In this document: positions 11,247-14,450 of the stretch, one piece after another | Numbering within the stretch: the stretch's first letter is position 1 | Layout of the letters: each line of letters starts with the position of its first letter | DNA from: Bacteroidota bacterium | GTDB lineage: Bacteria > Bacteroidota > Bacteroidia > Bacteroidales > VadinHA17 | DNA: 45,960 bases | Direction: 5' to 3' | Assembly: GCA_011042635.1 (NCBI GenBank) | Contig: DQWH01000044.1 | Coordinates: forward strand, 1 to 45,960 | Position numbers and translations under genes: made by a program | Notes under the pieces: generated by a model | Told to the model about the DNA's origin: nothing | What the model saw: the letters and a program-made list of their open reading frames with translations, nothing else | Database searches by the model: none

Positions 11247-12020
11247 TCATTCTTTCCACAGGCGGTGAACCAGTCTTTCTCCGAAAGGCTTCAGATTTTC
11301 CGGAAGCAGGTGAAGGAAGGTATAGAAATCGGGCTGAGTTTTTGCTTCCGAAGTAAGGTCTTCCGGATCGGACGGAGGCGGCGGCAGGGTAGCCTCACCC
11401 ACATAGGAAATGATCTGCCAAGCTTCGGGATTTTCCTGAAACATCGGCAGCAACTCCAGGGCGATCAGGTCATACAGGATTTTGTTCCCCCGGATCTTCC
11501 ACGAGGCAATGCGCCGGATCTCTTCCCTGATCCAGTTTCCGGAAACCTGATTCTGGTAAAGGTCGACTTTCTGGTAAGCTTCTCTGACCATATCGTTTTT
11601 CCTTTCGATAAATAATTCGTATTTACCTTCCAGGTCGGGATGGGGAGGATCGGTTTCCCACTTCGCAGCAAGCCAGTCCATGAAATAAAATGAAGCAGTA
11701 TGCGACAGTATCTCGGTCAGCCAGTTAATGATCCGGGGGTCGACGTAGATGTGCATCAATTCATGAGCGAAATCGTAAGCTGCTTTCCCAAAAGTGTCCT
11801 TTCCCGAAGTGATCCCCAGTCTGTACTGGTCAGGTTCCAGGGGTTTATAGATACGGTGCATATAATATGGGTCGTGGATCACGGCAATCGGCTTGAATCC
11901 AAGAGGGGGGGCGGCCGGGATCAGTTTTTCCATTTCACCGGCAATCGCATCCAGCACATACTTGACCCTCCGGTTCGAGTCTTCGTTTTCATACATCCTG
12001 CAATGAATTTCCCATGCCAT
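11247..12020 (-). CDS. Hypothetical protein with HExxH-like motif (HELMH), putative metallopeptidase fold
   Basis: YDFAHELMHIYVD; internal ATG 12020 (MAWEIHCRMYENED) looks like the real start, upstream residues low-complexity. Confidence 0.6.
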   Translation of the reverse strand: MAWEIHCRMYENEDSNRRVKYVLDAIAGEMEKLIPAAPPLGFKPIAVIHDPYYMHRIYKPLEPDQYRLGITSGKDTFGKAAYDFAHELMHIYVDPRIINWLTEILSHTASFYFMDWLAAKWETDPPHPDLEGKYELFIERKNDMVREAYQKVDLYQNQVSGNWIREEIRRIASWKIRGNKILYDLIALELLPMFQENPEAWQIISYVGEATLPPPPSDPEDLTSEAKTQPDFYTFLHLLPENLKPFGERLVHRLWKE

Positions 12021-12159
12021 GCTGTTCGTGTTTTTGTTTGGGTTTTGATCCTCTAAAATACAAAATTTTTCCGCACCATGCCTGGTCGGGGAAAGAGAAT
12101 TACCAAAAAACGGCCGATGCCTTGTAAAAGAAAATTGAAGGTCCTGAGAATAAGGGAGG

Positions 12160-12201
12160 TTATAAAACAAGGAAGGGAGCCATTTGACTGCCTCCCATCC
12201 T
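12160..12201 (-). terminator. Rho-independent-type terminator of the candidate ncRNA
   Basis: Minus strand AGGATGGGAG...CTCCCTTCCT stem (plus 12192-12201 / 12170-12179, one T-T mismatch) followed by TTGTTTTAT. Confidence 0.6.
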
Positions 12202-12588
12202 CACCTTTTACAGCCCATAGGCCGTAGAAGGCGCCAAGTTACAGTTATTACGGCTTTGGCTTTCCGTCGCAAGCCTTTCAGCTTGTCCCTTCCGGCCTCT
12301 GAGCTTTGGACTTTCGGTGTTGCCGAAGCACTACCTTATATCCTCCGCCCTGGCTCTTTAAAGGCCCTGTCAACACCTGTTTCTTGCGAAACCGATACTG
12401 ACAGGTTTGGATCGGCGGTTTTCTCCGGTTAAAGAGAAAACCCCGGTATCCCGCCTTTTGGCGTTCCGTCCGGTTCGGAATGTCTGGCGACATCCTTTCT
12501 CCGGCCGGGAGCTTTCACGGATTATTCCGAAGAACGTTCCGATCCGCACTCTCAAACCCCTCGAGCCTGCCCTTTATCTCTCACTTGG
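12160..12588 (-). ncRNA. Candidate large structured non-coding RNA (~430 nt), family unknown
   Basis: Promoter, closing helix CCAAGT/ACTTGG (12583-12588 with 12234-12239), at least 7 internal hairpins including GCAA, GAAA and UUCG tetraloops on the minus strand, terminator; no credible CDS. Confidence 0.6.
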
Positions 12589-12593
12589 TAGAT

Positions 12594-12625
12594 CAAATAT
12601 ATCCTAAAGTTCACTCCACACCAAA
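12594..12625 (-). promoter_or_regulatory. Bacteroidetes-type promoter for the candidate ncRNA
   Basis: Minus strand TTTG (12625-12622), 20-nt spacer, TATATTTG (12601-12594), an exact match to TAnnTTTG; predicted +1 about 12587-12589. Confidence 0.65.
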
Positions 12626-12663
12626 TTTTTCAGCCTGGTTCTGTACACAACATGTAAACACAG

Positions 12664-12685
12664 GTTATGAACAATTGTTAATAAC
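12664..12685. promoter_or_regulatory. Near-perfect 22-bp palindrome GTTATGAACAATTGTTAATAAC (operator or facing DnaA-box-like sites)
   Basis: Directly visible; one mismatched base pair only. Confidence 0.5.
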
Positions 12686-12929: not shown

Positions 12930-14450
12930 ATGATAAAAAAAATACTAATTGCCAACCGGGGCGAGATTGCCGTGCGTATTATCCGTTCATGCCGGGAAAT
13001 GAATCTGCAGACGGTGGCCGTTTTTTCCGAAGCCGACCGCAGTGCCATGCATGTACGATACGCCGATGAAGCTTACCCCATTGGCCCCTCCCCTTCCCAT
13101 GACAGTTATCTTAACATGAGGAAGATCATCGAGGTGGCCAGGGCTGCCGGAGCCGATGCCGTACATCCCGGATACGGGTTTCTATCCGAAAACGCAGAAT
13201 TCGCAAGAAAGGTCAACCGCGCCGGATTGCGATTTATCGGCCCTTCCGCCCGTGCCATTCATACCATGGGCGACAAGATCACCGCCCGCAGAACCATGCA
13301 GGAAGCCGGTGTGCCGGTAGTCCCGGGTATAAACGAAAACCTGCCCAACAGGGAAATGGCCGGACGAATCATGAAGGAAATAGGCCTTCCCGTCATGATC
13401 AAGGCCTCGGCCGGCGGAGGAGGCAAGGGAATGCGACTGGTCACCCGGGAAAAAGACCTGCTGCCCGCCCTGAAAGGAGCCCGCTCGGAAGCCATTACCG
13501 CTTTTGGTGATGACTCGGTATATGTGGAAAAATACATCGAATCGCCCCACCACATCGAATTTCAGATCCTTGCCGATGCCTACGGGAATACGGTCTACCT
13601 GATGGAAAGAGAATGCTCCATCCAGCGGAGGCACCAGAAAGTGGTGGAAGAAACCCCTTCCCCCCTGATGACGCCCGAACTGAGAAAAACCATGGGGAAC
13701 ACCGCCGTTAAGGCCGCCCGGGCAGTAGGCTATGAAGGAACCGGCACGGTCGAGTTCCTGGTGGATGACAACCTGAACTATTATTTCCTGGAAATGAACA
13801 CCCGGCTTCAGGTGGAACATCCCATCACAGAAAGGGTCACGGGAATCGATCTGGTAAAGGAACAGATCCGGATCGCCGCCGGGGAAAAACTGGGATATAC
13901 CCAGCGCCAGATCCGGCAGGACGGACATGCCATCGAGTGCAGGATTTATGCAGAAGACCCCGACAACCATTTTATGCCCAGTCCCGGCAAAGTTAAAAAG
14001 GTCACCGAACCCAACGGATTGGGAGTCCGGTCGGACGGATACGTTTACGAAGGTTATGAAATCCCCATTTATTACGACCCACTGATCTCCAAACTGATCA
14101 CCTGGGGCAATACGCGTGAGGAAGCCATCAAAAGAATGAAACGCTCGTTGCAGGAATACTACATCCTTGGAGTGAAAACCACCATCAGTTTCCTGGAAAA
14201 AATCATGGAAACACCCGATTTCGTCAACGGAACCTACAATACCCATTTCATCGAGAAAAACATGAATTTCCTCAGGATCCCCAACATGAATACTTCGAAT
14301 TACGACCGGTTTGAACACATGGCGGTAATTACGGCCGTACTGGAATACCTGAAAGACCTGGAACAACCGGTGAACGGATCCGATACGGGGAATAATGAAA
14401 CAAGCCGCTGGAAACAGTTCGGACGCCAGCGGGGTATCCTGCGTTTCTAA
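12930..14450 (+). CDS. accC: Acetyl/propionyl-CoA carboxylase, biotin carboxylase subunit
   Basis: KKILIANRGEIAVRIIRSCREM; ASAGGGGKGMR; EMNTRLQVEHPITE. Confidence 0.95.
   Translation: MIKKILIANRGEIAVRIIRSCREMNLQTVAVFSEADRSAMHVRYADEAYPIGPSPSHDSYLNMRKIIEVARAAGADAVHPGYGFLSENAEFARKVNRAGLRFIGPSARAIHTMGDKITARRTMQEAGVPVVPGINENLPNREMAGRIMKEIGLPVMIKASAGGGGKGMRLVTREKDLLPALKGARSEAITAFGDDSVYVEKYIESPHHIEFQILADAYGNTVYLMERECSIQRRHQKVVEETPSPLMTPELRKTMGNTAVKAARAVGYEGTGTVEFLVDDNLNYYFLEMNTRLQVEHPITERVTGIDLVKEQIRIAAGEKLGYTQRQIRQDGHAIECRIYAEDPDNHFMPSPGKVKKVTEPNGLGVRSDGYVYEGYEIPIYYDPLISKLITWGNTREEAIKRMKRSLQEYYILGVKTTISFLEKIMETPDFVNGTYNTHFIEKNMNFLRIPNMNTSNYDRFEHMAVITAVLEYLKDLEQPVNGSDTGNNETSRWKQFGRQRGILRF

Follow-up and report, generated by a model that had tools for sequence, protein, structure and literature searches.

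A large structured RNA gene of Bacteroidia, outside the Rfam 15 families and preceded by a DnaA-box-like array

The window analysed here is a stretch of 45,960 nucleotides from a Bacteroidota bacterium of the GTDB lineage VadinHA17 (contig DQWH01000044.1). Between the gene for a protein that we call HELMH and a divergent biotin carboxylase gene, positions 12160-12588 of its minus strand hold a free-standing gene for a structured RNA, complete with Bacteroidota promoter, closing helix and terminator and preceded by an array of DnaA-box-like 9-mers (Table 1). An initial annotation, made from the letters alone, had proposed a large non-coding RNA in this spacer, and the spacer, strand, promoter, closing helix and terminator were all found where it had placed them. 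The transcription start given in Table 1 is a prediction, made because the TAnnTTTG element spans -12 to -5 in published promoters (PMC9723704); a TAnnTTT(G/A) box was found in 62 of 81 homologs. The predicted fold of the minus strand reaches -176.6 kcal/mol, compared with -138.6 kcal/mol for dinucleotide shuffles (z = -6.6; 0/100 shuffles).

Table 1 Features of the RNA locus and its neighbours in the window. Paired changes are given as pairs with double (two-sided) changes over pairs judged, from 24 f1 homologs unless another set is named
Feature	Position	Strand	Basis or remark
HELMH protein, no Pfam family, downstream neighbour	11247..12080	-	
RNA gene, about 430 nt	12160..12589	-	homologs, fold stability, covariation
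Intrinsic terminator	12160..12201	-	7/8 (A5), 11/16 (24 f1 copies)
Exterior hairpin, UNCG-like UAUG/UACG loop	12202..12233 (12233-12220/12215-12202)	-	13/13 (A5), 11/11 (24 f1 copies)
Conserved 3' block CCGUAAUAACUGUAACUUGG	12234..12253	-	alignments A3, A5; core of models R1, R2
Closing helix, 3' strand ACUUGG	12234..12239	-	covaries across families
Hairpin CAAGCU-GAAA-GGCUUG	12269..12286	-	4/6 (12-sequence set)
Helices 12350-12347/12304-12301 and 12343-12340/12311-12308, carrying the UUCG hairpin	12301..12350	-	7/8
UUCG hairpin, inner stem	12328-12326/12321-12319	-	3/3
Helix GGCUC 12567-12563 / GAGCC 12356-12352, enclosing the upper domain	12352..12567	-	3/5
Long hairpin CCUGUCA/UGACAGG with GUUUC-GCAA-GAAAC, GNRA loop	12366..12405 (12405-12388/12383-12366)	-	15/17
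Hairpin GGUUUUCUC/GAGAAAACC	12420..12441 (12441-12433/12428-12420)	-	6/8
Conserved 5' block ACCAAGUGAGAGAUAAAGGGC	12569..12589	-	degenerate pattern scan, 16 contigs
Closing helix, 5' strand CCAAGU	12583..12588	-	covaries across families
Bacteroidota sigma-A promoter, TTTG 12625-12622, N20, TATATTTG 12601-12594	12594..12625	-	predicted +1 at 12589
DnaA-box-like 9-mer array, palindrome TTATTAACA-AT-TGTTCATAA 12684-12665 and two weaker boxes	12642..12684	-	conserved upstream; no binding data
Biotin carboxylase (accC-like), first gene of a carboxylase operon, divergent neighbour	12930..14450	+	

At the Rfam 15 gathering threshold cmscan returned no match for the window, and at E <= 10 the only one was a chance match to c-di-GMP-I-UAU (22.3 bits against a threshold of 65.9); the homolog loci gave chance matches only. 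The absence of RNase P, tmRNA and SRP signatures, remarked on in the annotation, was borne out. RNase P RNA and tmRNA are both rejected, as RF00010 and RF00023 are absent at the locus and the genome's own copies lie on other contigs (G000:C159, 256 bits, and G000:C35, 148 bits, respectively), and for SRP, as for every other Rfam family, no gathering score was reached. Bacteroidales-1 RNA (RF01693) resembles the window RNA in being a non-coding RNA of Bacteroidota, but its model finds no match at the window RNA, and this identity is likewise rejected. Its sole match, at G000:C40:14698-14871 (L025; 38.9 bits, below the 60-bit cut-off), is probably the genome's own Bacteroidales-1 copy. No open frame is conserved, the number and spacing of stops differing among homologs in all six frames, which rejects a protein-coding gene and agrees with the earlier failure to see a believable CDS. 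The annotation had called for the cmscan search, which matched no known Rfam family, and had named an Rfam match, uncompensated stems or a conserved frame as outcomes that would refute it; none of these came about, and with homologs that covary the large non-coding RNA is supported. The open-licence literature held analogues of this RNA and no account of it, and in the same literature a search on Cyclobacteriaceae, noncoding RNA and Rfam found nothing; an account in a subscription journal may be missed. That the RNA is real and lies outside Rfam 15 we regard as virtually certain, and the family is previously undescribed, while its mechanism may still be of a known kind.

Homologs were collected in several ways. 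A blastn search of 60 relatives gave 17 genomes, every one in the GTDB family of the window (f1). When a degenerate pattern of the 5' block alone was matched exactly against 85,488 species genomes, 16 contigs came up, among them a further Bacteroidales line and records with Cyclobacteriaceae or Flavobacteriales in their titles. All of these contigs that extend far enough also carry the 3' block and, since the pattern had excluded it, this co-occurrence is an independent test. Using covariance models of the 3' block (R1, then R2, built from 41 sequences), the RNA was found in 72 of 79 f1 genomes, with all 15 genera represented, normally as one copy per genome (one genome has two contig-end matches), and in 58 of 149 genomes of a second family, f34 (38 of its 73 genera), which we infer to be Cyclobacteriaceae or a close relative. 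Here one to three copies occur per genome, with several tandem pairs, and complete, probably cultured, genomes are among the carriers. At the f34 loci L146-L152, diverged copies occur in pairs spaced 0.8-8 kb, and the genes around them differ.

Among sampled Bacteroidia the RNA was present in 43 of 396 genomes from about 14 families, some by weak matches, and a phylum sample of 399 genomes gave no match outside Bacteroidia. Nor was any found in phages, viral contigs or plasmids, so that a phage or plasmid origin is rejected. Many Bacteroidia genomes have no RNA detectable with the covariance models, and thus it is either not required across the class or has diverged past the reach of the models. 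Family f27 gave weak matches (E about 1e-4 to 1e-6), which are taken as probable members of the RNA family; the loci inspected show upstream boxes, a promoter and a candidate for the closing helix. In three very divergent f27 relatives (L191, L194 and L195) AUCAAGAACGAAGUACUUUG replaces the 5' block, while box-like arrays and the hairpin-terminator end are retained. One further match, L070, was rejected on inspection by eye as a chance match within a coding gene.

From several families 82 full-length copies of 233-716 nt were extracted. All share one order of parts: the 5' block, which reads ACCAAGUGAGRGAUAAAAGG, then the closing helix, the 3' block (AUAAUAACUGUAGCUUGG, or GYCAUAAUAACUGUAGCUUGG), the exterior hairpin and a terminator whose end is TTTTGTTTT. 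Within this constant frame, sequence comparison reveals a fast-changing, modular middle. Specifically, the usual 300-nt form in f34 holds a single three-way-junction module, GAAGGRGCU-hairpin-AGUCUGAGACGG-NNAA-CCGCAGAAGUA, which bears a conserved CGG-NNAA-CCG hairpin. Three loci from one genus (L058-L060) pack four related modules into about 610 nt, three by the strict pattern.

The helices of the window were judged on an alignment of 24 homologs from f1 (Table 1), and most of the stems that the initial annotation had drawn keep their pairing through two-sided changes: the UACGGCC-UAUG-GGCUGUA stem, both stems of the long GCAA-capped hairpin, the 9-bp hairpin, the inner stem of the UUCG hairpin and the terminator stem. 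The closing helix covaries between families, reading CCAAGU/ACUUGG in the window, CCAGAU/AUCUGG in the homolog L016 and GCAGUU/AACUGC in f82, and the loop of the exterior hairpin is of the GNRA type in f99. CAAGCU-GAAA-GGCUUG is maintained in a 12-sequence subset, with one compensated pair in a congener. Two of the proposed stems fared poorly, CGGAU/AUCCG being weak and absent from the consensus helices, and CGCC-AAAA-GGCG being weak and losing two pairs in a 93%-identical congener. Two supported elements had been overlooked, namely the helix enclosing the upper domain and the paired helices that carry the UUCG hairpin.

In alignment A5 (41 sequences) 91% of cells pair, with 185 two-sided-change cells against 59 after shuffling (0/500) and 17-47 when partners were slid; for 17 compact forms (alignment A4, 44 pairs) 95.5% pair, with 80 such cells against 23 after shuffling (0/500). 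The shuffle counts disregard relatedness, which the slid-partner control retains. RNAalifold run on plain MAFFT alignments fails to recover the middle helices. The covariation support is overwhelming.

Throughout f1 the RNA is divergent from the accC-like operon wherever that side is covered, and in seven f1 loci a homolog of the HELMH protein lies directly downstream. The RNA adjoins a PhoH-like gene in f99 and f80 (by reading, with no Pfam run), and the neighbours differ in f88, in f34 and between paralogs within one genome. The RNA gene is thus independent of its neighbours.

Upstream of the RNA, 40-170 bp from its start, at least two DnaA-box-like 9-mers are present in 76 of 81 copies, compared with 4-20% of Markov-simulated upstream regions; the array typically occupies the stretch 60-110 bp before the start. 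Such arrays are conserved in at least five families whatever the neighbouring gene and, because they accompany the RNA when its gene neighbourhood changes, they belong to the RNA. The box type varies, being TTATTAACA-AT-TGTTMATAA in f1, canonical TGTGGATAA in f34 and TGTTCATAA in f88. Strict boxes number 50 in f34 against 2.3 expected, relaxed boxes 45 in f1 against 2.1 expected, and exact TTATCCACA occurs 22 times in 82 x 200 nt over a background of 0.0055 per 200 nt. By sequence, the array satisfies one criterion for a DnaA-controlled promoter, upstream sites that fit TTWTNCACA / TTATNNACA. Moreover, 19 of the 20 box clusters in the 1.107 Mb examined lie within 120 bp of an RNA start; this sequence was chosen partly around the RNA, but the RNA with its upstream regions accounts for no more than a few per cent. 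The sole cluster away from the RNA in this 1.1 Mb is L094:2781 (G004).

DnaA binding to the array is inferred, and no binding data exist. Against it count the f1 boxes, which are mostly of the TTATTAACA type rather than canonical TTATCCACA, five f34 copies without two boxes, and the G795 copy, in which none was seen. The palindrome recurs upstream of the RNA in 12 of 12 f1 genomes tested, with few second sites. Such second palindromes were seen beside a LOG-family (TIGR00730-like) gene at G000:C25:5179-5198 (L232), G001:C24:4941 (L229) and G004:C1:2146799 (L228), the last 64 kb from dnaA, and this LOG-adjacent site may be a replication origin. A copy close to the replication terminus of G795 (L269) has no box array upstream.

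We propose that the gene product is a free-standing, structured, trans-acting RNA whose transcription is coupled to DnaA, a reading to which we give a probability of about 0.5. DnaA would bind the upstream array and tune transcription, and the level of the RNA would then track DnaA and the state of replication. The strands flanking the closing helix (GUGAGRGAUAAAAGG and AUAAUAACUGUAG) may form a single protein- or RNA-binding site, to which the middle modules could add further sites. Most likely the RNA would act as a ribonucleoprotein component or a protein-sequestering regulator, linking a cell function to chromosome replication. What comparative evidence alone establishes is the gene, together with its conservation, structure and array; transcription, DnaA control and partner binding are inferred, there being no transcript or binding data and no known partner protein. 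By the family test the RNA has no known relatives, and the nearest systems by way of working are CcnA, OLE/ROOL/GOLLD, CsrB-type sponges and datA.

It is also possible, though we consider it unlikely, that the RNA is a protein-binding scaffold or sponge, CsrB-like or OLE-like in its working, and that the array is a growth-rate or housekeeping promoter signal without DnaA. The related modules, repeated in L058-L060 and single in each compact copy, and the one to three paralogs per genome would suit such a role, but the array fits the strict DnaA consensus in f34 and such box clusters are nearly absent elsewhere. The protein-sequestering RNAs CsrB and RsmZ have repeated modules (GGA hairpins) and paralogs in one genome. 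Repeated modules and same-genome paralogs are found in the window RNA family too; its modules, however, are three-way junctions rather than GGA hairpins, and it has no Rfam match. OLE, ROOL and GOLLD (PMC12286853) are likewise large, stand-alone, elaborate RNAs known from covariation, with functions mostly open, but their Rfam models do not match the window RNA, whose family lacks any Rfam match, spans 233-716 nt and has the DnaA-box-like array upstream.

Less probable still is that the DNA itself is the functional element, a locus that binds DnaA in the manner of datA or DARS and is modulated by transcription. The E. coli datA locus and related DnaA-box clusters (PMC4585315, PMC10950094) share with this one an off-origin cluster and transcription at the locus, in datA by tRNA read-through (PMC10950094), and box arrays are conserved at the loci of every family. 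In the window, by contrast, the cluster lies upstream of a conserved RNA gene; the boxes are upstream of the promoter and outside the transcript, and covarying helices, conserved loops and a dedicated terminator would be superfluous for a DNA site.

The possibility that the locus is a replication origin and the RNA an origin transcript appears very slight, and for f34 it is contradicted. The model here is CcnA of Caulobacter, a non-coding RNA gene that lies within the origin, is presumably activated by CtrA and has DnaA boxes nearby and a tie to the replication cycle (PMC8959179); the window RNA resembles it in its DnaA-box-like sites and in the tie to replication inferred for it. Box arrays are present, and in several f34 and f88 genomes the RNA is 20-200 kb from dnaA. 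However, two or three copies occur at distant sites in one genome, and in G004 the RNA is 1.1 Mb from dnaA. Strand-corrected third-position GC skew, applied to the single-contig genomes G778 and G795 (the skew of the f1 genome G004 is too weak), revealed no switch from minus to plus at the RNA locus in either. The skew origin of G778 is at 1.0-1.2 Mb and its RNA at 1.68 Mb, 0.5-0.7 Mb apart; in G795 they are at 1.2-1.4 Mb and, near the terminus, 3.40 Mb, about 2 Mb apart. With the skew origin elsewhere in both, origin identity is rejected for f34. The window RNA differs from CcnA in being off-origin where tested, as well as larger, modular and from another phylum.

A ribozyme built, like RNase P or group I introns, of conserved core strands and a variable periphery seems equally remote: the conserved core and the variable peripheral domains with GNRA/UNCG loops are as expected of one, but no ribozyme family in Rfam matched the window or the homolog loci, there is no target or splice-site pattern, and the gene has its own promoter and terminator. 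Scarcely credible is that the RNA serves the next gene as a 5' leader of the riboswitch or attenuator type. In favour of this speaks only that the next gene is often co-directional in f1; against it, all copies keep a conserved terminator, and in other families the genes downstream are different ones or point the opposite way. The change of neighbours between loci rejects a cis-leader of accC, HELMH or any other neighbour.

The class-wide spread, the modular middle and the upstream DnaA-box-like arrays are additions to what the initial annotation had described. Structured RNAs this large that are nearly universal in one bacterial family are few, and several have proved central. Returning to a trans-acting RNA under DnaA, its fullest form can be put forward only tentatively, at somewhat less than even odds: a large, structured regulatory RNA, widespread in Bacteroidia, for which DnaA sets transcription by way of a dedicated off-origin box array and which reads out the state of replication initiation. 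The upstream array suggests DnaA control, and would in that case offer a way into the coupling of an RNA to chromosome replication in Bacteroidia.
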